NCBI GenBank assembly: GCA_019096065.1
Contig: JAGUCH010000009.1
Location: 568,001 to 632,000, forward strand
DNA: 64,000 nucleotides
Source: Paracyclopina nana
Lineage: Eukaryota; Arthropoda; Copepoda; Cyclopoida; Cyclopettidae
Direction: 5' to 3'
Shown: positions 48,850 through 63,631 of the stretch, piece after piece
Layout: each line of letters begins with the position of its first letter
Position numbering within the stretch: position 1 is the first letter of the stretch
Translations under genes and position numbers: made by a program
The notes under the pieces: generated by a model
What the model was told of the DNA's origin: nothing
What the model saw: only the letters and a program-made list of their open reading frames with translations
Databases searched by the model: none

Positions 48850-50660
48850 TTATTTGTTTGACTTGGTATGATCATCTCTGATGACATTGTACTTTTTCAC
48901 AATGACATTCCACTGTGTCACATGCTCCAATTTGGTAACTCTGCCAAGGCTACTGGAACTGGAACCAATTGCTTTGGGGCCACCTTGCTCTGTTGTTGAC
49001 AAAATATCTGTAAGCCAAAAATAAAAAGGTAAATAAAGGCCATTCATAAGCTATGTTTGCTCAATATGTACCTGTTACTGGGCTAATTTTGCCACCCACT
49101 TTGATCCTCTTACTTTTATTGGCAACTCCTCCTTTTTTGGCACCATTTTTCATCCTCTTGTAGGAATCCTTCTTCCTTGCATTCCCTACATGAAACAAGT
49201 GTGTGGTGGTAAGCAAGGTGACAGAGAAGAAATGGCATATGTATCTAGTTACTTTTGAGGGCCAATCTGATGTATTCGGTCCATGTTGTAATGAGATTGA
49301 TTGGAGCTGGAGATGCATTGGTTCGATGCATATTTCGAATGAGTTTGGCAAGGCCATACTTCCACTCAATGTCAGATTGTTGCTACACGTGAAATGGCAA
49401 ACTCTGAAGAAAAGCCCAAAATAAAGCTGAGTGTACGTACTTGGATTCTCTGGTAAGTGTCACTCATCATCGCAATCAGCAGATTGATCAACACAATTGC
49501 AGCTGTCAACAAGTAAATGCCAAAGACAATTTTAAAGAGCATCAGCGTCCAATCTTCAACATGCTTTGTGGTCCTCAAGTCTTCAGGACGGGTTAACCCA
49601 AACAGGGAGAAAAAGAGCAGCTCAAAGGCCTTTATGGGGTTAAGCACATAGTCATTGTTTGTCTGCAGGATTTCCTTAGTTTTGTCAATGTTGGTTGTGA
49701 GCGCATTGAGGGCATAATAGGGCTGGTTAAGCGATACAATCAACATTGAGAAGCCAAGTTCAAACAACATGAGTACAGCTAGAAATTTGCCAGTATCCAC
49801 TAGAAGGCTGCTAATAATGATGGCCCAAGGCCCAAACAAATGATGGAAAGACAGGAAGTCAAGAATTTGAATGCAACAGCATAAAAAGGACACCCCAATG
49901 AACTGATTGCGTATGTAAATCATCACTGGCCAAGATTCTGTGTCAAAGCCAAGCGTAATCATATGCACAAATACTGCTGCCTATAAAGAATACACATCAA
50001 CGTTACGCTAAAAGAGTGATCATATGCAACTTACAAGATTGAGTACAATTATGACTAGCTTGATGGCACCAAGTCCACTTCTGTCCTGGGGTGAAATTAG
50101 CTCTCCGAGCAGCAACCCTGACAGCCAAATGAGAAGAATCCACTCGTTCCAATATAAAGCGAGGCTGTCTCGATAAATAGGGTATAATGGCATGCAGGCT
50201 GTCAACACTTGTATCACCATGAAGTAGAGATGGGAAGTTAGGTAGCAGCCAAACTTTACAATGGGTGTCTTGTTGTATTTGTTGTTCAAGGGTAGGGCAA
50301 ACACCAACCAAAGTGGGGGCACAATGGCAAAAGTGGCCAGAAAAAGGAACATTCGATAGCCCGGCCATTCCACCAGGCCACCCTTCCAAAGTTCAGTTGT
50401 GTACGTTTGTACTGCAGAATTGGCAATAACCTATGGCATTGCAGCAAAAAATAATGGCAGGGCTGTAAAGCATGCAAACTGAATTTTACCTGTTTGAGTT
50501 CACATTCGATGAGAACATCTAGAAAAGAAGCACCTTTCCGGTCGACCGCCTGCAAAATGGCCCCAGGGTTTTCTGCCACAGATGCAATGCTCACCAATTC
50601 ATTACACATGTCTTCAGCAAACATGGATGCATCCATCAGGTCTTGAGCCCTATCTTTTTC
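48850..50660 (-). CDS. nompC: nompC channel cassette B (alternative or duplicated C-terminus)
   Basis: Exons: 50660-50490, 50430-50035, 49980-49441, 49382-49253, 49185-49072, 49007-48850; 502 codons plus stop. The cassette holds the pre-membrane linker (EKDRAQDLMDAS), six transmembrane helices, the pore (FFSLFGLTRPEDL), S6 (INLLIAMMSDTYQRIQ), the TRP-domain helix SDIEWKYGLAKLIRNM, a basic tail and a terminal helix VTQWNVIVKKY. Exons 1-4 have the same lengths as cassette A (171, 396, 540, 130 nt) and the same phases. By eye, protein identity is about 86% in exon 2 and 83% in exon 3. No first exon is visible upstream: the exon opens at a TTTCTTTCAAG acceptor, 132 bp after cassette A's stop. It is either spliced to the shared ankyrin exons or the remnant of a partial gene duplication. 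AATAAA overlaps the stop codon. Confidence 0.9.
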
Positions 50661-50792
50661 CTTGAAAGAAAAATCATGGTTTTGCAAAATGCCTATACAT
50701 ATAAAGTTGCATGCCATTATTGATTTATATTATTTAGTTTAGAGTCAGGCTTGTAGAAGTATAGCAGAATTTATAATTAGGTGAGTAAATAT
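50661..50792 (-). other. 132-bp gap between nompC cassettes A and B
   Basis: Contains cassette A's downstream sequence and the acceptor of cassette B (polypyrimidine TTTTTCTTTCAAG). There is no room for an independent ankyrin region. An in-frame ATG (50717) lies upstream of the acceptor, so a channel-only protein starting there cannot be excluded. Confidence 0.6.
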
Positions 50793-50797
50793 TTAAT
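50792..50797 (-). promoter_or_regulatory. Candidate poly(A) signal of cassette A
   Basis: ATTAAA, a common variant signal, overlaps the TAA stop (50795-50793). Cassette B shows the same arrangement with AATAAA at 48854-48849. Confidence 0.4.
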
Positions 50798-52588
50798 TTT
50801 CTTCTTTGGGAGCCTCAGCCTTCAAGTTTTTGTATCTTTTGACCACAATGGCCCAATTGACAGCTCCAGACAGGTATGTCAAATTATTGAGGCTGGTAGA
50901 GGAACCAACTACTTGATGCCCTTGCTCAGTAGAAGACAAGGCTTCTGCAAAGGAAATATTTACATGAGGAATAATGCTATGAAAAATAAGTCAAACCTGT
51001 GAAAGGAGTCACTTTGCCACCCATCTTGGCCTTGGTGATTTTCATCTCCTTTTTCACCTCTTGTTGCTTCATTCTTTTGTACTTGTCCTTCTTCCTGGCT
51101 TTTTCTTTGATGATGAAAATAAAAGTTGAAAAACCTTCATAAGTATCTTAAAGAAATGCTTACTTTTCAGAAGCAGTCTGAAATATTCTGTCCATGTTGT
51201 GACAAGATTTATGGGAGCTGGGGATGCATTAGTTCTGTGCATGTTTCGAATAAGCTTGGCTAATCCAAACTTCCATTCAATGTCTGAGGCTTGCTAAAAA
51301 GTGTATTACATATTTAGGCATAGAACATGGAAAAATATGCATGGGCTCACTTGGATGCGCTGATAAGTGTCACTCATCATAGCAATCAGAAGATTGATCA
51401 ATATAATTGAGGCTGTCAGCAAATAAATGCCAAAGACACATTTGAACAGGATCAATGTCCAATCTTCTACATGGGCGGTGGTCTTCAAATCTGCTGGACC
51501 AGTTAAGCCAAACAGTGAGAAAAAGAGCTTTTCAAAAGCTTGCACTGGATTCGGGACATAGTCATCATTAACATCAAGAATTTGCTTTGTCTTGTCATTC
51601 TTTTTGGACAACTCATTCAAGGCATAATAGGGTTGGTTCATGCCCACAATGAGCATTGAGAAGCCAAGCTCAAAGAGCATGAGAACGGCAAGAAATTTGC
51701 CAGTGTCTACCAAGAGGCTGCTAATAATGATGGCCCAAGGTCCAAACAAATGATGGAAAGACAAAAAGTCGAGGATTTGAATGCAGCAGCACAAAAATGA
51801 CACACCAATGAATTGATTCCTTATGTAAATAGTGACTGGCCAAGACTCGGAGTCCAATCCAAGCGCAATGCAGTGAACCGATATTGCAACCTAACATGGC
51901 AAACAATAGGCATCATCAAAGTTAAACAGAAACTTATCGCATATGATATAGTACCAAGTTTAGAAAGATGATGATAAGTTTGATGGCCCCAAGTCCACTA
52001 CGATCTTGTGGGGATATGAGCTCACCAAGCAGCAGACCAGATATCCAGATGACAAGAACAAACTCATTCCAATAGAGACCGAGGCTGTCTCGATAAATTG
52101 GATAAATGGGCATGCAAGCTGTGAGTACTTGAATCACCATGAAGTAAACATGTGAGGTCAGATAGCAACCAAACTTGACAATGGGTGTCTTGTTGTATTT
52201 GTTGTTCAGGGGCAATGAAAAGACAAACCATAAAGGGGGAACGAGACAAAAGCCAGACAGAAAAAGGAACATTCGATAGCCGGGCCAATCGGCTAGGCCA
52301 CCTTTCCACAGTTCAGTGGTGTACGTTTGCACGGCAGAATTTCCAATAACCTAAATTGCACAAGCCTTTTTTGTGTCACGTTGTTCCTGAGAGAGTGTAC
52401 AGCTTTGCAGAAATTACCAATTTCATTTCACTTTCGATGAGAATGTCCAAAAAGGGGACATTGCGCTGATCCACAGATTGCAAAATGGTACCAGGGTTTT
52501 CAAGTGCAGAGGCAATGCTCATCAATTCATTACAAATGTCCTCAGAAAAGACGGAAGCGTCCATCAAATCTTGGGCCCGATCTTTTTC
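50793..52588 (-). other. nompC: nompC channel cassette A (exons 18-23)
   Basis: Exons: 52588-52418, 52350-51955, 51890-51351, 51293-51164, 51104-50997, 50944-50793; 498 codons plus stop. The architecture equals that of cassette B. Pore segment FFSLFGLTGPADL; TRP-domain helix SDIEWKFGLAKLIRNM; tail rich in Lys; terminal helix LSGAVNWAIVVKRY. Introns are 57-67 bp between most exons. Between exons 3 and 4 of the two cassettes neither intron sequence aligns by eye, while the coding sequence stays closely matched. Confidence 0.92.
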
Positions 52589-55500
52589 CTAGATGAATTA
52601 CACTACATGCTCAAAAGTTCTACATTGTATGCATACAATTCTATTATAGCGGTGCAAATTCTACTTGATTGTTTTTCATAGAAGCTTTCGCTACTAACTA
52701 GTTTTGTGCAAAATACTTTTGTAGGAGTCTGATGCATTAAAAAACTTGGCACATACACTCAAGTTTCTTTTGCATCAGTCTCTATTTTGCATGGTACTAA
52801 GGACAAAATGTGCATTTTTTGCTCTACTTTGGCACTACTTGTTATGAAGCAGCTATCTATTTTTTCCTGTCTCTACTAGAACTTACTCAAAATTAGTCCA
52901 CTTTTGCTGCCCTATAGTACACACAAGCCTGACCCTAATCTCAGCATAGTTTATGCAGTGTACATTTTTTTCAATCGGAAAAAGTTAATTTCTGACTCTT
53001 TTCTTGGGATTTTAGCTTTTAGTGTGCTTGGTTATACCTTGAAAGACAATTCCCTGAAAATGGCTGAAATTTTGGCAGCTACATCCACTGGAGCTGGTGA
53101 AGCCAGAATGAAATCCTCTGTGGGAGCATTGTTGCTTTTTTTGCCACAAGCCATCAAGTTGTAAACAAACTGAAAGAAAAGTAAACAAATGGAATCACAG
53201 ATATTACTTGGTTAATCAATTTTCAAAAGCAAAAAACCAGTCAATCATTTTTTCCTGAAAAACTAGTCATTTCTTTCCAAGTAACTTTACAAAAAAGTCA
53301 ACTGTAGCTTTTTCATATCAGTTTTTCTGGAGAAAAAATAAGCTATTTGGCAAAAAAAACGTTTACCTTTGAAAGAAAAGTTATTTATCTAAAAAAAGAT
53401 CATTTTTCATTAGATTTGAAATATGGTAGTACCTTTCTGTCCTCCAGCAATTTGTACGAGTCATGCTGCTGCTGAATCAAATAAGTCACAACTTTTAAAT
53501 TGCTTTCAGCTGCAGCAAACCACAAAGGAATTCTTCCATTTGTTGTCTCTGCTGTAGTTGAGGCCCCACTTTCTGCCAGTAATTTCACCACATCCAAATG
53601 GCCAGCCTGTGCAGCTGAATGCAGCGGAGTCCACCCATCCTATTCAGAGGGAAAAAACCATTTTATAGCTTAAAGGCCAGTGTGAGAAAACGAGCTGAAA
53701 CACAACAATATTCTGCCAAAATATCTCCCAAAACACAGCCCTTTGACAGTTTGAGATTTTCCTTATGGCTGCACTTGGTAATTGAAATGGTCTTGAGCAT
53801 AGTGAGCATAGGTTTGCTGATGTACCTTGTCTGCACAAGTGTAGTCGGATCCTTGACCCAAAAGGACTTGGACCATTTCAAAATGGCCACTGGCTGCAGC
53901 CACATGGAGGCAAGTCTGGCCTTTCTTATCTGCAATCTTCAATAGTGTAGTGGAACGGCTCAACAAGAGGCCCACCACTCCTACATGGCCTTTAAGGGAG
54001 GCAAAATGGAGAGGAATATAGCCCTGAAAATGAGAAAATATTGACTGGAGAGAACAACAGGCCAGAAAAAGGCAAAAAAAGATCCAGCTGCTATATTAAG
54101 GGTTGATTAAATTGATCCCATGCATTTCAGTCTTTCGGGGCTTACCAGACTCTCAAGTCGAGGAAATAAATCTTGAAACAGAAATTAACATTTGCTGCAC
54201 GTAGCACAAGCAGAAAAAGCCAGCCCCATAAGAAGGAGAAAAGTCTGAAATATGACAGTGCCTTTTTTTGGCAAGAAAGTGTTAAAAAAGAATCCAGTCG
54301 GAAGAATTTAATATTCAAGGCCTTACAGGAGGAAATTGGTTTTTTCCTTATGTCTCCCTGTTGTACTCTTTGCATTCCATTTCATTTTACTGCTGCTATT
54401 CAATGGGGTGGGTGTGAAAACAAAGATTTAGCCATAAGAAATGTATCCCCTGAGCCCTACGAAATGTAATTTGTATATGATAACATTTTTACTTATGCTA
54501 GCATACAATGATTATTAGTATTAGCTTCATAAAAATAAATTGCATTGGTTGAGCAGCAATCATTGACAAAAAGGGACTCACTGGTGTATTATTACAATTA
54601 AACTCAATGTTTATCAAAAAGAGTGTTGTAATAATATGAATGCAAAAGTTGATATTTAAAGAAAGAGCTATTTCAAAGGCACAAATTGGAATTGGTATTC
54701 CTGGGCTTAAAGGTGAAAATTGGACTTACCGAAGGACTACATCCCCCTTCGACATCAACTCCAGAAGAGTTCAGCAAAGCCCTGACCACATTCTCACTGC
54801 CAGAATAAGCTGCTAAATGCAAAGCTGTGAGGCTGGATTCACCAGCCAAATCTTTGGTGATTGCATAATTTGGATTTGTTGGCTGCTCTGACTTCACACT
54901 TGCTGGTACATGAGTCAACAATTCCCTAACAGTATCTGAAAAATAGAACCAATGCATTTCATCTTCCTCGGTATGTGTGTCAGAAGGTTTCCCAGGCCTT
55001 TTTTGCACTAAAGGATCTATTTTTAATTAAAGGAATAAACTTTCTGTGGTTCAGCACTGAAAGTGTTGAGAAAAAGTTTGTTGCTTCTCTTACAATGCAT
55101 CAAAATTTGACAAAAGCTTTAAACTTCATCAAACTTGAAATTGCAGCATATGTTCAGTTGCATATCATAAGGCCAATATTTTATCAAAAAGATGAATTCA
55201 CCCTCTTTTCCATAGTATGCTGCAATGTGGAGTGCAGTGAGCCCAGTTTTCCTGCTCAGTTGCCTGAGATTGACATTGCTTTTATGAAACTTGTCGATGA
55301 GTTCAGTGTGACCAAACTTTGCAGCAATGTGAATCGGTGTCAGTCCAGCTTTGTTCTCATCTGAAGCTGAAGCTCCAGCATCCAGCAACTTTTTGACAAC
55401 ATCAAAATGGCCGCCTTCTGTTGCAATGTGCAATGGGGTAGAATCGGTCACTTTATTGCGAGAATTCAGCACAACATTCAAGTCGTGCTTCATGAGCTCT

Positions 55501-58500
55501 TCAATGACTGAAATAGAGCCTTGAGCCGCTGCAATGTGGGCACAAGTGCTTCCATCCTGAATTAAAATAATATTGATCACCAATTAAAAATGATTAATTT
55601 AAAAAAAATTGTCAATAACTTGGCAATAAGTTGTCAAGAAATAAATTGTCTATACTGAGTCAGTTAAAAAAGTTATTATAACTGTTTCATTCATATTGCT
55701 TGAATTGGCTTGCCATTGCATTCATATAGTAGCTAAACATTGTAATTTATCAATATTACACATTTTATAAGATATTGTCAAATACTTGTAAAAGAATTTA
55801 TTAGTATGAATTAGAAGAAGCAATAGTTAAATCTTTAAAAATATTTCATACAATTCTAAGAAGAATATGTATTACCTTTGTTGCTATTGATACCAAGTTT
55901 GGCCTCTGCTTGAGCAACAATTTGACAACTTCAGGCTTGTTCGATTGGGCTGCCAAGTGGATAGGTTTTTGCCCATAATCATCAGTGGAATCAAGGCTGG
56001 CCCCAAGTTCCAACAAAAGGCTGCACACTGACAACTGGCCAAATTGGGCAGCCAAATGCAATGGGGTTTGTTTTTTCTGTAAAAACAAAACACAAATGAC
56101 CAAAAGTTTCCTTATAAGTAATGACTCCACACTGGGCCATGTTTGGCCGAAAAAATCACTTTTTAGCTCACAAACTTGATTTTTGTACAATAAATGATCA
56201 CAAATATGAACAGTAAAGTCAGGATATTTACATACTACAATATTGGTCCTGTTTTATTGGAAAACTTCTTGGGCATCAAAGTCAAATACAATATTATGTA
56301 TGTTTTAGCAGAAAAAATCAGAGCATTGGCGAAAATCATATATGTTTGCCAAATAATAATGCTTTATTTTATGTATATGATGAGTGCAAGGGTTTCTTTA
56401 TGTCTGCAGGTGCAATAGTTCACCCACCGGCTGTTCCCATACAATAAAATAGGAGAAAAAGGATAAACAGTAATTTATGACATGGATTATATAGAATTTT
56501 GTTGTATTATTTCATGCTCCTTTGAAAACAGAGAAGAAACCATGCACAATGACTTTTTAGGATCTAGCATTATTTAGTAATTTGAAAATCACATCTCTTT
56601 TTTTCAAGGCAAGAAATTGGTTGACTCATTGATTGATTGATGCTTTTGAAGCTAGTATTTGTGTAAAGAGGTGTCAATTAATGCTACAATTGTAAGTAAT
56701 TTAAAGCCAATAATTTGAGTCGTTTGAAATAACATTAGCGTCATTCGAAATAACATTTGAGTCATTCAAAATAAAAAAAATGTCATTTGAAATCACATTT
56801 GAGCCATTTGAAATCACATTTGAGCCATTTGAAATCAAATTTGAGCCATTTGAAGTCAAATTTGAGCCATTTGAAGTCAAATTTGAGCCATTTGAAGTCA
56901 AATTTGAGCCATTTGAAATCAAATTTAGCCATTTGAAATCAAATTTGAGCCATTTGAAATCAAATTTGAGCCATTTGAAATCAAATTTGAAATTGAAAAA
57001 AGCCTGTGATTTTCAAACTATTGTTTTTAATAAGTGTTTAATATTGAAGCAAGGTTTACGCACCATTGTTAAAGAGTCAATGGTTGCATTGTGCTTTTTG
57101 ATGAGGTATTCCACCAAGGCTGAGTAGCCTTGCATTGCAGCATAGTGAAGGCTGGTCCAGCCTGTCTTGGCCTTTGAATTGATAAAGGCATTTTTGTTCA
57201 ATAAAGCTTCACAAACTTCAATACTGCCATGCTCAGCAGCTAAGTGAAGGGCACTTCTGCCCTCATGGTCAAAAACATCCACTCTCCCATTGTTATCAAG
57301 GAAAATCTAAAAAATGAAATATTGAGATAATTTTTAGAGACTGATCTCAAGAAAATGATACACAACCAGATTTTTGCTAATTTCACCTTGCCATGACTGA
57401 TGAAAAAAATTATTATTATGACTTATGACATAACTCACATTGTGACACATGACATTACTCATTACATGCAACATAAGTCATTTCATGACACTCAAATGAG
57501 TCACATCTTGACTCATCAAATAACAGACATCATAACACATGAGATAGCTCATAACATTACACATAACATAGTTCATATCATGACTCATTACTTAACTTAC
57601 TTTATAACTCACAACATAACTCATACCACTGACAAACTCACATCATACCTCATGACATGACTCAAAACATGACATAACTCACATCATAACACATGATATA
57701 ACTCATATATAAAATGACATATTATATAACTTACACCATAACACATGTTGTAACTCATAAAATGACACATTACATAACTCACATCATGACAAATAACACA
57801 ACTCACGTCATGACTCATGACATAACTCACACCCTGTCTCGTCATACTACAACTCACACAATGACTCCTGATGCAACTCAAATAATGACTCAGTACATAA
57901 CTCACATCATGACTCATATCATGGCTCACAAATGAAACTTTACCTTGACAGTTTCCAAGTGACCTTTGCTGGCCGCAACAATGAGTGGAGACCAACCGGT
58001 TCTGCTCTGCTTATTGACTGCCAATTGGATCTGACCTCCATGCAAATGCTGGAGGACTTCACGTAAAACATCAGTATTGCCTTCAGATGCACAGTAGTGA
58101 AACACAGTTTCCCTCTCCTGAAAGCAATCAAAAGATTTGAGGCAACATTCAGTCAAAAAATGATTTGCCTCAAACAAAGTCCTGGAGGATTCAGTTCCTC
58201 CGAATGACTTATGTGATTTTGGGCTCATCATGAGACGACTCATGAATCTCACCTCTTTGGTCTGAGCCATGACATCTGAGCCATGCTCCATGAGCAGCTT
58301 CATGATCATGGCATCTTCTTTGGGGAAATGGAGGACACTCTTCTTGATTCTTCCAGCATAATGCAAAGCCACTTCTCCTTCTCGGTTGGTCCTCCGAACG
58401 AATTCAGTGCACTTTTCCTCACCGTGCTTATTCACATGATGCAGCAGCTCTTTTACCACTGGATAGTGGCATTTTCTGCAAGCTTTGTGCAAAGCTGTCT

Positions 58501-61500
58501 CACCTCCCTAAAAATGGCCAAATATTAAAATTCTTGACATTTTTTTGCAATTGAAAAGTAAGAAATTGAATTTAGTGAAGCATAAATGATGACATGCATG
58601 TTTACAATGATGGAATGGATAATTTTGAGCTTTTTTCAAAGTAAGTTAGTAGAAACAAACCGGGCCATAAGGTTGCTGGAAGCAGAATTCAACATCAATG
58701 AAGCAGTTAATTACAAGTACAGAATGTCCCACAGAAAATGTAATGATAACAACATTTCAAAAATACTGACTGCCTCAAAAAACAGCAATGTCATATGACA
58801 TGAACTGTAATTGATATAATTCATAGTGAAAATTGTAACATGTATATGGTTCTATAGGAAAATGGAATCCTTGCATCAATACATACATAATGTTCCACGG
58901 AAAATGCTATATTTACATAATATAAATCTAAGTTATTTACTATGAATGAGACATGCTACTTTATGCAAACTTACTAAATACACATTTTTAAATTCATTAG
59001 TTTGACAATTGAATGATTACATGAAAAGCATTTTTTGCTGGAAAAATAAAAAATAATTTGAGTTGCAAGCTTTAGGTGGACACATGTTGCAAATACTTGC
59101 TCAAAAAATCTAGCTAGATGTTTTCTGTGAGGAAAAAGTAATTACTGTGTCATCTTTGAATGGGTCAGCATCGTGAGCCAGCAAAAGCTTGAGTACTGCA
59201 ATTGATCCACTCTCAGCTGCAATGTGTAATGGAGTCCTTCCATCAGTCATTGCCAAATTGGTGTCAGCTCCTGATTTGAGCAGCATTTTGGTACACTTTT
59301 CACCCCGGGCTTCTTCGATGCGAGCAGCAATGTGCAGCGGTGCCTCACCGATTTGACCGCCTAAAAAAGACATTCTCATTAGCATTTTCCATAAACAAAT
59401 ATGAGGAGTTATTTTTTGACTCCAAATTGCCTTCAAGTGACCACAAGTGGCTTTTGTCTCATATTTCTTTTGAGATTTTTTCATGAAAAATGCTGCTGAA
59501 TGATTCGTCAAAGAAATTGGCCAAAAAAAGGAGATTTACCTCTGATGTGAACTTGGGCTCCATGGCCCAAAAGAGCCTCAACAACAGCTGGTTTACCAGC
59601 CTCAACCGCTAGATGGAGTGCTGTGTAATTATCCTAGGAAATTAGTATAGCATTAAAATGAGTTACACATCTCTTTATTCATGTCATCTAAATCATTGCT
59701 CTCAAAAAAACGAAGAACTTTTATTGGCCCATAGAGCTTCTGTTGTCCCATGGGAACTTTTAATATCCCATATATGAATATGGGAGCTTCTTTTGTCCCA
59801 TGAGAACTTTTATTGTCCCATATGGGAGCTTCTATTGTCCCTTTGGAACTTTTATGCTGTTGGGACAGAAATTTTCCAAAATGGAATTGAAAATGTCCCA
59901 AAATGGGACTGAAAATGTCCCAAAATGGGACTGAAAATGTCCCAAAATGAGTCTGAAAATGTCCCAAATGGAACTAAAAATGCCCCAAATGGAACTGAAA
60001 ATGTCCCAAATGTGAATGAGTATGTCCCATTAGAGACTGAGGAACTAAAGATGTCCCATTAGGGTCCGATTGACTAGAAAGGTCCCATAAAGGCTTTTTT
60101 AAAATGAAAAGAACTTCTTCGAAGGCTCCGTTTGGAATGAAGACTTCATCTGTCTCATTAGTTGGAACTTACATTTGTGACTGCATCCACATTTTCTCCT
60201 TTGGCCAGTAGAGAGTTGATGACAGCAACATGACCCTTCATTGCCGCCGTGTGAATGCCTCGAGCTCCATTTCGATTCGGCATCAACAATGGGACACCCT
60301 TTTTGAACAGTACCATCGCGGTGTCAGGATGGCCGTTTAAGGCCGCAATGTGCATCAACGTGCTGCCATCTTTGGTGCGGTCGAACACAGAGGCCTTGAA
60401 TTTGTCCGCCAAAAACTCCACAGTCGATGTGTGGCCACGCTCAGCCGCCAGATGGAGCGGTGTTCGATCTAAAAAAATGAAAAGTTACTCCCATGCCATA
60501 AAAATGACTCAGCTGTAAAAAGTGCCTTTCGATCAGTATTACACATTAAGGTGAAAAAGTACTTTGTCAAAATGTCCCATAAATGCCAAGATGTACCAAA
60601 CAGCCATACAGCTTCATTAAAACTACAATTACGTCAGAGTGCATCATGTACGTCAAAATGTCCCATTAACGTCAAAATGTCCCATTTACGTCAACATGTC
60701 CCATTTACGTCAACATGTACCATGAACGTCAGAATGTCCCATTAACTTCAAAATGTCCCATTTACGCCAAAATGTCCCGTTTACGTCAAAATGAAACTTT
60801 ACGTCAAAATGTACCAACTTTTTTACATTTTTTTTTTTTTTTGAAATTATATTATTAAATTGAGGCGAATCAAAAATATTCAGCCAAAAACCCTGAACTT
60901 TTCTCTGTTCAGTAATTAATTATACCATAATTTCGGCCGTAATTTGTAGGTGAACCGGGTCTAAGAGTCAAAATCTCCTATTTTTTGTAGAAATGTCCTG
61001 GTTAAGGTCAAAATGTCCTATTTTGAGCCAAAATATCTGTTTCAAATTGAAAAAAATCCCTTATATGACAAAAAGTCCCATATAAGGTCAAACTGTCCCA
61101 TTTAAGGCCAAAATGTCCATTTAAGTCAAAATGTCCCATCTTATGTCATAACATCCCATTTTTGGTCAAAGTTTCCCATTATAGGTCAAAATGTCCCATA
61201 TCGGGTCAAATTGCCCATTTAAATATGTCCCACTCTAGATATGTAACTGTAACGTGTCTCATGAAGCTGAAACCGCCTCATTGCAGGGCAAAATGTCCCA
61301 ACGACACACATTTTCATAGGGTTACATTTTCACCTTCGTTATCCTGGATTGTGGCATTGGCTCGCGCTAAGTAGAGGGTTCGAATCATGTTTTCATCGCC
61401 GTTGAGGGACGCTATGTGCAGGATCGTTTGGCCTTCAGCCTTCAATAATATAAAAAAAACAATAAAGTAGGTCAATTTTTTCCTGCCACACTTTTGACGG

Positions 61501-63631
61501 ACGCTTCCTGCTAATTTTTCAAGGCCTAGACACAAAATTCCGAGGCATTGTACAAACCTGTGGCAAAAATTGCAATTTGTCTGCTACATTTTGCAGTGAG
61601 AAATGTGACTGGGAAAAAGGTGAATAAAGAGCACTTTTTCGCGTACATTTTGAGTGTCCACTCCCGCTCCCGCCTCGATGAAAAGTTTGACCATTTCATT
61701 GTCTTTTCTGCGGGCTGCCAAATGCAAAGCCGTGTCCTTCAGCGGTGGCTTTGTGTATTTCACTTGGGCCTCGGTCTCCTGCATCAAAAGCTCTCGGCAA
61801 ACGTGGAAATTGCCGGCCTCAACCGCTGCGAAAAGGGGAATATTTCCATCCTAGGAAAAATTAAGCCTACTATTATCCTTGTTGATTGGAAAAAGTCAAA
61901 TAGTTTGAGCAGCCATCTCCGCAAGAAACTTTAAAGCATTGGTTTGATGTTCAGCCTTACTTGGTCGGGTTTGAGCCGGATGTCTTTGGGTGCCACGGAG
62001 ATTAAGGCCCTTAGGATTTGTAAGGCATGCGAAGTTGGCCTTGAGCAGACCAGGTGGATGCAAGATTGGTTCTTGGGCTAGAAACGGAAATATTCAGCTG
62101 AATGCGGCCCGAAAAGAGGCAATTGTATGGTCTTTAAAAGTGGGCACTTTTTTTAATCAAAAGTGACCACTTTCTTAGTTAAAAATGACCACTCTTTAAG
62201 TTGAAAGTGAGCACTTTTTGAAAGTTGAAAGTGACCACTTTTTGAAATTTGAAAGTGACCACTTTATGAAAGTTGAAAGCGACCACTTTTTGAAATTTGA
62301 AAGTGACCACTTTTTGAAATTTGAAAGTGACCACTTTTAGAAATTTGAAAGCGACCACTTTTTGAAGTTTTGAACTTTTTGAACCGCCACTCAGTGGTCA
62401 ATTGAGTATTGTGAAAGTTGTATGATTTTGGATGAAAGGGCCACAAGCATGGGTAACCAAAGTGGTCCCATTTTCACCAAACCATCAAAGAGGCCACGTT
62501 TTCAGCAAAACTGAAAAGTGGTCCCATTATTTAAGGCGGTTAAAAAAAGTGACCACCGATCAGTGGTCCATAAGTGGTCATTTACCCCTCCTGGTCCGGT
62601 GGGGTCGGCCTTTTTGGCCAGGAGCTGTTTGACGGTGTCTTCCCGCGAATACATTGAAGCTAGGTGCAATGTGGTGTACTGTTCTTTGTTCTTGGCATTG
62701 ATGTCACAACCAAGCTCGATCATTCGGTCAATGAGCAAAGTTCGATTCTCCATCGCAGCGTACATCAAAGGCGTATTTCCAGTGACCTGCAAACGCAAAT
62801 GTCCCGTTCATCTACAATACCTACATTTATGGAGTCTTTTTTAGATTTTCATTGTTTAAAATTATTTAGGCCCAGTTCATATGCTACATAACGGTAAACG
62901 ACGTAACGGAAACTAAGATCATAATTTCTAAACAGTATAACATTATAAATCATGAAAAAATAATCAATGTTTTCCCCTGAACTGATGAGATTTTTTAATT
63001 TAAAGCTTTCTTTATACTTATTACACTTCAAATTCAAATGTTATCAAAATTGCAAAAAATAGAGTTTTTAAAACTCTATTTAGTAGATGAACGGTGCCTT
63101 AGTACCACGTTTCAGCGGAGTCAGCTGCCATAAAACAAATCACAAAAAGTAATTGTGATGGCTCAGATATTGATTCTCCTGCTCTCCATCCAGTGAAATT
63201 ATCTAGAAAGTTCCTTGACAAAAACGGAGCAAGAAAAGAGCCTAAAATTCTCTTTAGAATCCAATTCTATGAATTTCAAACACACAAGCTAAGTAAGGAG
63301 TAAAGTGAACTTTACATCTTAAAGTTAAAGCTTTCTTAAGTTCTTAAGTTAAGACTCAATGAGGACTCACATTGTCACTTATTCCACTCAAAGGTTGCTT
63401 AGCTGTTGATCCATCTTCGACTGCTCTTTCCAAGGCTTTTAAGGCGGATTCGCAACCAGTCCAATCGCCTTTTTGTGCAAGCACCAAAATTCGCATAGAA
63501 TTCGCATTCGGTGGTCCGGCTACAGATGATGTCTTTTTGTCCTTTTTCTCTCCTTTTTCTCCTTCTTTCTCAGCCTCACTCCCCTTCTTCGATGGCTCAT
63601 CTTTGACCTCTTGCTTTGCATCTTTCTTCGA
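50793..63631 (-). CDS. nompC: NompC/TRPN mechanosensitive channel (shared ankyrin exons plus cassette A), 5' partial
   Basis: Shared exons in transcript order: 63631-63371, 62786-62586, 62077-61961, 61850-61647, 61439-61334, 60468-60173, 59633-59540, 59360-59146, 58507-58253, 58117-57944, 57306-57064, 56076-55876, 55556-55202, 54935-54730, 54023-53826, 53639-53433, 53169-53038, then cassette A. The frame is open for 1155 shared codons plus 498, about 1653 aa in all, matching the usual ~1600-1700 aa of NompC. Repeated TPLHxAA ankyrin motifs run throughout. NompC-specific stretches include ADKFKASVFDRTKDGSTLMH, RVDVFDHEGRSALHLAAE, DDYGQKPIHLAAQ and FVYNLMACGKK before the membrane part. In insects the long ankyrin domain is the gating spring that tethers the pore to microtubules in ciliated mechanoreceptors. 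The first exon with the start Met lies beyond 64000 or in the repeat-rich 63640-64000. Confidence 0.96.
56700..56995. repeat. TTTGAGCCATTTGAAATCAA repeat (21 bp) in nompC intron
   Basis: About 13 units, nearly identical between 56790 and 56990. The multiple-of-three period leaves frames open on both strands. Confidence 0.9.
57390..57940. repeat. ATGACTCATCACATAACTCA degenerate repeat in nompC intron
   Basis: CATAACTCA, ATGACTCA and ATGACACAT words with a period of about 15-20 bp fill the intron between exons 58117-57944 and 57306-57064. Confidence 0.8.
58560..59120. other. nompC intron without visible features
   Basis: AT-rich unique sequence between exons 59360-59146 and 58507-58253. Two near-identical words, ACAGAATGTCCCACAGAAAATG and a diverged copy at about 58890, are the only repeats seen. 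Confidence 0.4.
59690..60095. repeat. AAAATGTCCCAAAATGGGAC repeat in nompC intron
   Basis: Two sub-families: TTTTATTGTCCCATATGGGAG at 59720-59850 and GAAAATGTCCCAAAATGGGA at 59880-60010. Each has an inverted GTCCCA ... TGGGAC pair. Confidence 0.85.
60540..61300. repeat. AAAATGTCCCATTTACGTC 19-bp repeat in nompC intron
   Basis: About 35 degenerate units in two parts (60560-60820 and 60985-61300), separated by a T-rich stretch at 60820-60850. Confidence 0.9.
62125..62375. repeat. 24-bp repeat around AAAGTGACCACTTTTTGAAA in nompC intron
   Basis: About 9 units with the short inverted pair AAAGTGACCACTTT. Looser AAGTGGTC words continue to 62580. Confidence 0.9.
62830..63370. other. nompC intron 1 of the window, no features seen
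   Basis: AT-rich sequence between exons 63631-63371 and 62786-62586. No repeat array or coding signal apart from short TTAAGTT words near 63330. Confidence 0.4.

Follow-up and report, generated by a model that had tools for sequence, protein, structure and literature searches.

The TRPN channel has been described as strikingly constant: where present, it is encoded by a single-copy gene with one spring and one pore (for copy number, PMC4494053 and PMC11526382; here and below, statements on cited papers refer to excerpts of them). Bilaterians are said there to have exactly one TRPN, except amniotes, which lost it, and a survey of crabs gave one NompC (PMC10795286). In C. elegans, unc-49 produces three GABA-A receptor subunits, UNC-49A, B, and C, by alternative splicing at one locus (PMC6920096). 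NALCN possesses alternative pore exons, 15a/15b and 31a/31b (PMC3557258). In the case of Dscam exon 6, a site near the constant exon can pair with one located ahead of the variable unit, looping out the intervening part (PMC6071210). Here we analysed the nompC (TRPN) gene of the copepod Paracyclopina nana. It lies on the minus strand of a stretch of 64,000 nucleotides (GenBank assembly GCA_019096065.1, contig JAGUCH010000009.1, positions 568,001 to 632,000 of the forward strand), called the window below; positions without a contig name refer to it. The genome searched comprised 91.95 Mb in 10 contigs, with the window gene on contig C9. Our analysis showed that this gene has a single ankyrin spring and linker followed by two complete channel cassettes, A and B, and we consider it probable that nompC makes two TRPN channels by using them as alternative terminal cassettes.

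The shared part of the gene was found to consist of 16 exons, spanning 63631-53038 and coding for 1200 residues (Table 1). These residues make up the ankyrin array and the linker; Pfam Ank_2 matched them with an E value of 1.4e-182 in 15 stretches, which are stretches and not a count of repeats. By the Pfam ankyrin families, the long N-terminal ankyrin array that belongs to a TRPN channel is therefore present. The exon carrying the start codon was not located, and the 16 shared exons begin at 63631. The last of them (53169-53038) ends in phase 0 with GAA TTG TCT TTC AAG, followed by the intron sequence gtataacc. Both cassettes start with EKDRAQDLMDAS, and the exon start phases are 0, 0, 0, 0, 1, and 1 in A and B alike. 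GT-AG borders were found in all 10 introns within the cassettes and in both introns that the shared donor could form (449 nt to A, 2377 nt to B). Whether the 16 shared exons are joined to A or to B, they are in phase, and no stop occurs ahead of each cassette's own. The initial annotation of this DNA had described two six-exon cassettes with the same start residue, the same lengths of exons 1-4, the same phases, and separate stops, and the sequence confirmed all of these. As in unc-49, one shared 5′ coding block is followed by complete 3′ channel blocks in tandem, each of which can be joined to it in frame.

Among solved structures, the closest to both A and B is Drosophila NompC isoform L (5vkq), which was the sole match at E values up to 1e-50. 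Fly NompC scored 464.7 bits against the full-length B product and 441.3 bits against the full-length A product, and both alignments reach the tail. The long TRP motif LLIAMMSDTYQRIQ is present in A and B, and both contain a TRP channel part with the TRPN-type motif. We take the glycine at position 1506 of the 5vkq chain to be the selectivity filter. Just behind this glycine, A has FGLTGPADL and B has FGLTRPEDL, which is a charge change in the outer pore. This change may have an effect on the channel, and the two channels may differ in function.

A and B are identical at 376 of 498 aligned residues (75.5%), and either is 46.5% identical to a paralogue on contig C2. They are each other's closest relatives, which indicates that the 3′ half of the nompC gene on C9 was duplicated to give rise to both. 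From the first exon to the sixth, identical residues numbered 40/57, 114/132, 149/180, 38/44, 18/36, and 17/49, so that the membrane part is conserved and the tail is diverging. The Nei-Gojobori method over 498 codons gave a nonsynonymous divergence (dN) of 0.182, a synonymous divergence (dS) of 1.46, and a dN/dS of 0.124, values that are rough as dS is near saturation; 61 of 141 four-fold sites were identical. Judged from these substitutions, both cassettes are under purifying selection and their differences are mainly synonymous. With the C2 paralogue as outgroup, A and B showed 10 unique changes each; with fly NompC as outgroup, A showed 17 and B showed 8 (chi2 3.24). Identity to fly NompC was 216/427 residues for B and 207/427 for A. 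By these counts, neither cassette is clearly decaying faster than the other. Within the first 12 codons of B, 6 nucleotides in 36 differ from A, all of them synonymous. This suggests that the first codons of B are translated, which would be compatible with a spliced and with a stand-alone B alike.

These results bear on the proposal of the initial annotation that B might be an unused copy left by a partial duplication. B does lack a spring of its own, as would be expected of such a relic. However, it has kept six open exons and five GT-AG introns despite the high dS, its dN/dS is low, its rate is even with that of A against the C2 outgroup, and it is slightly closer to fly NompC than A is. Selection on B contradicts the proposal, and a dead copy was rejected as extremely unlikely.

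Nor do the sequences look like two alleles or two loci set side by side by the assembly; an assembly artefact had also been raised in the initial annotation. Contig C10 seems to duplicate part of C6, so some haplotype duplication appears to exist in this assembly. But in a genome search, a 361-base stretch of B matched itself and A alone, the latter at 72% DNA identity. Four of the five A/B intron pairs were no more alike than shuffled sequences, and intron 2 was weakly alike (equalled by 5/500 shuffles). The 132 nt preceding A and the 132 nt preceding B were not alike (305/500 shuffles as good). Moreover, A and B have one common spring, and a partner arm of the putative RNA stem described below sits in the gap between them. 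Collapsed haplotypes were rejected as unlikely on the DNA identity and the introns, and an artefact of any of these kinds is hardly credible.

A second TRPN gene was identified at about 8739600-8752800 of contig C2. Read on one strand over 30 kb, it looks conventional and has one pore. When a query of the linker and last ankyrins (179 residues) was searched against the genome and the best 150 of 265 candidates were scored, we found at least 138 matches, mostly ankyrin stretches of other genes. Among the matches listed, only the C9 locus and C2 extend past query residue 164; since these alone span the linker end, no spare spring for B was found among them. A search with the channel exon matched A, B, C2:8751666-8752196 (50%), and one weak stretch on C1 (E 5.2e-4). 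In the C2 gene, LKEKDRASDL lies within one exon, and the pore introns are at other positions than in the C9 gene. The intron preceding the cassettes is therefore either special to the C9 gene or lost on C2. Two TRPN genes with three channel ends in one bilaterian would be an exception to the published one-copy rule. Just downstream of the C2 gene, C2:8756119-8757519 holds a long open frame that looks like a Nit-Fhit fusion.

In Dscam exon 6, the docking site is located in the intron following the constant exon. We have identified a 20-nt putative stem with a similar layout in nompC. An inverted-repeat search of 50661-53037 found 17 pairs, one of which links the shared intron with the gap before B. 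The two arms are complementary, one lying near the constant exon and the other ahead of the variable unit; 96 intron bases separate the shared exon from the former, and 75 bases separate the latter from exon B1. By a simple score, the stem was reached by 8 of 20,000 dinucleotide shuffles. By a stacking score, whose energies are approximate values, it was reached by none of 3,000 dinucleotide shuffles and by 4 of 1,017 real control stretches, all four being antisense of the intron itself. The 16-mer core of the stem occurs exactly twice in 92 Mb, once per arm (reversed control, 0), so the stem is not a dispersed repeat.

Taken with the B acceptor (TTTTTCTTTCAAG), which ranks 7th among 28 nompC acceptors while that of A ranks 18th and which gives mild support for the splicing of B, these data suggest the following course of expression. 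The pre-mRNA would carry a single ankyrin spring with its linker, up to 53038. Joining of 53038 to the acceptor at 52588 would yield isoform A, with its own stop and a predicted polyadenylation in the short gap. Skipping of A and joining of 53038 to the acceptor at 50660 would yield isoform B, which has a pore, TRP domain, and tail of its own. Since the final exon of A terminates in a stop, the two outcomes would be mutually exclusive. The stem 52941-52922/50755-50736 probably favours B by looping out cassette A, and its pairing would shorten the distance from the shared donor to the B acceptor to about 170 nt of intron (96 + 75). We put forward, as a tentative extension, that an RNA switch picks the pore of this mechanosensor, the stem looping out a terminal cassette so that one spring gets one of two pores cell by cell. 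This would be a Dscam-like control of alternative gene ends, with pores that differ behind the filter and in the tails.

Several observations weigh against the use of A and B as alternative ends or against a role of the stem. The splice from 53038 to 50660 is one that we infer from the sequence. Neither AATAAA nor ATTAAA, as would serve isoform A, was found in the gap when 12 poly(A)-like hexamers were sought there, and only non-canonical ones are present; an AATAAA at 48854 overlaps the stop of B. As regards the stem, its score is reached by 40 of 20,000 real pairs drawn at random and equal in size, and among 351 pairs of nompC introns it comes second by raw score and third by length-adjusted score, one pair scoring above it consisting of repeats. 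The shared intron at 52772-52749 and the 5′ end of B intron 3 at 49440-49417 pair at 22 of 24 positions with similar strength and no evident role. Duplex energy over the whole length did not discriminate, since it was matched by 19 of 1,000 shuffles and by 105 of 204 real controls. The competing selectors that accompany each variable unit in a docking system are not seen here, the best matches for a selector of A in the intron before A being 8-11 nt. The next-best partner of the docking arm is a 14-nt stretch at the end of A exon 5 (51001-50988), with a score of 27.0 against 39.6. Finally, translation of a channel-only protein could begin at an ATG at 50717, which has A at −3 and G at +4. The initial annotation had held that B has no ankyrin or start exon of its own in the 132 bp before it. 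As regards the start, this needs correction: the ATG is in frame with B when the gap is read unspliced, and the frame is open through MACNFICIGILQNHDFSFK directly into EKDR.

Because of this ATG, B has to be considered as a separate, ankyrin-less TRPN gene from a partial tandem duplication, whose promoter would lie within the 3′ part of A and whose start codon would be that at 50717 (MACNFICIGILQNHDFSFK-EKDR...). Such a gene would also explain why the first codons of B are constrained. However, the 3′ end of A, the promoter of B, and its 5′ untranslated region would be squeezed into 132 bp or overlap the coding exons of A, and the linker, which couples spring to pore, would be interrupted mid-way. 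A functional-looking acceptor would be left standing exactly at the exon start and phase common to A, and the stem formed with the shared intron would have to be fortuitous. In A+T-rich DNA, the 23 open codons upstream of B are by rough estimate not surprising. Therefore, the channel-only copy that the initial annotation had proposed, without mention of this ATG, gains a start codon and is the chief rival reading, but seems improbable, as gap crowding, the retained acceptor, and the stem favour splicing.

The gap also invites an operon-like reading, by which the pre-mRNA is cut within its 132 bp, a spliced leader is added at 50660, and translation of a channel-only protein starts at codon 9 or 13 of B, both ATG. 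Trans-spliced operons typically have intergenic gaps of about 130 bp that hold an acceptor, and in size the present gap agrees with this. The genome is that of an arthropod, and spliced leaders are known from copepods and amphipods (PMC4664967, PMC7986045). But the core of the calanoid leader (from PMC4664967) had no exact match in the genome, and a leader-like core of parasitic copepods (from the same excerpts) had none at up to 2 mismatches. A model of nematode SL1 had no match among the best 50 of 27,226 candidates, in a search that had no positive control. Leaders other than the two copepod cores are possible. In the excerpts of PMC7986045, operons are described as unreported in copepods or amphipods. 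In addition, the 8 codons ahead of the first ATG in exon B1 have been kept as protein, with 4 differences from A that are all synonymous. We regard this reading as very unlikely.

Splicing of A and B as alternative ends of one gene thus agrees best with what we observed. The proposal to that effect in the initial annotation is supported in part: B is intact and constrained, it has a good acceptor at the same residue and phase as A, no spare spring was found for it among the listed matches, and a 20-nt complementarity connects its upstream gap with the shared intron, while the joining of 53038 to 50660 itself stays a prediction.

Table 1. Features of the nompC locus in the window (window positions; exons are given in the direction of transcription).
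Feature	Position	Strand	Remarks
Ankyrin spring, 15 of 16 shared exons (63631-63371 to 53639-53433)	53433..63631	-	phases consistent, no stops
Last shared exon, linker FVYNLMACGKK...FRELSFK, 132 nt, last base 53038, phase 0	53038..53169	-	joined reading frame
Intron, shared donor to cassette A, 449 bp	52589..53037	-	GT-AG
Cassette A, 6 exons, 498 amino acids, stop 50795-50793	50793..52588	-	5vkq E 4.1e-131 over residues 1-490; Ion_trans E 8.2e-07
Exons of cassette A	52588-52418, 52350-51955, 51890-51351, 51293-51164, 51104-50997, 50944-50793	-	171, 396, 540, 130, 108, 152 nt
Cassette B, 6 exons, 502 amino acids	48850..50660	-	5vkq E 3.1e-138 over residues 1-496; Ion_trans E 2.2e-07
Exons of cassette B	50660-50490, 50430-50035, 49980-49441, 49382-49253, 49185-49072, 49007-48850	-	171, 396, 540, 130, 114, 158 nt
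Gap, A stop to B acceptor, 132 bp	50661..50792	-	hexamers TATAAA (50775, 50729), AATATA (50731), ACTAAA (50738); ATG 50717
Putative docking arm, 20-nt stem, intron bases 97-116 past the shared donor	52922..52941	-	16-mer core nowhere but in the two arms, 92 Mb
Putative selector arm	50736..50755	-	19/20 paired with 52941-52922 (17 Watson-Crick, 2 G-U, 1 mismatch)

Short repeats were found in the window at 59.8-60.1 kb, 56.7-57.0 kb, and 36.9-37.5 kb, with translations like FGTFSVPFWDIF or GTLCPLGHF; those at 59.8-60.1 and 56.7-57.0 kb lie within nompC introns. A tRNA search found no tRNA genes in the window. Elsewhere in the genome, Chitin_bind_4, a family typical of arthropod cuticle, had 80 matches. 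Contig C5 carries a Hox cluster, whose sequences we read as labial to Abd-B, with abd-A included. C10 has four homeobox matches that correspond in order, strand, and score to four at C6:6.96-7.05 Mb, and it may represent that region as a duplicate haplotype. Within 45 kb at C1:3245581-3290280 there are four very similar homeobox genes, which are presumably Msx-like. The COX1 family had no match in the assembly, and no relatives turned up in a scan of IMG/VR.

If nompC does make both channels, one spring on two pores would be a natural experiment on the shares of spring and pore in mechanical gating. TRPN diversity could then be generated within a single gene and be overlooked by surveys based on gene counts. 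If the stem is real, structure-guided exon choice would be extended to whole terminal cassettes. In excerpts of the open-licence literature on isoforms, copies, and alternative ends of TRPN, nompC, and TRP channels, no description of two channel ends in a TRPN gene was found. The statement of the initial annotation that no description of this arrangement is known therefore holds for TRPN within those excerpts, but not for the architecture as such, which has a precedent in unc-49 (PMC6920096).

Compared with Drosophila NompC (5vkq), the P. nana gene is alike in its ankyrin array, linker, channel part, and long TRP motif LLIAMMSDTYQRIQ. The differences are that one gene has two channel ends and that the genome contains another TRPN gene. 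In NALCN, too, tandem duplicated exons exchange the pore inside one channel gene (PMC3557258), but there one internal exon alters the filter, whereas in nompC the whole channel half and the tail change. The stem, with A looped out, resembles the docking and selector geometry of Dscam exon 6. However, there is here a single selector (for B) and none for A, the looped unit is a six-exon terminal cassette and not single exons, and the nompC stem is known from the sequence of a single genome. The closest likeness in gene structure is to unc-49, where a common N-terminal exon block is joined to alternative 3′ blocks, each with its own transmembrane part and C-terminus (PMC6920096). Unc-49 belongs to another channel family and makes three subunits, while the shared part of nompC is an intracellular ankyrin spring and the use of its two ends is predicted. 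In kind, the nompC locus is the unc-49 arrangement in a new channel family, together with a candidate RNA switch.

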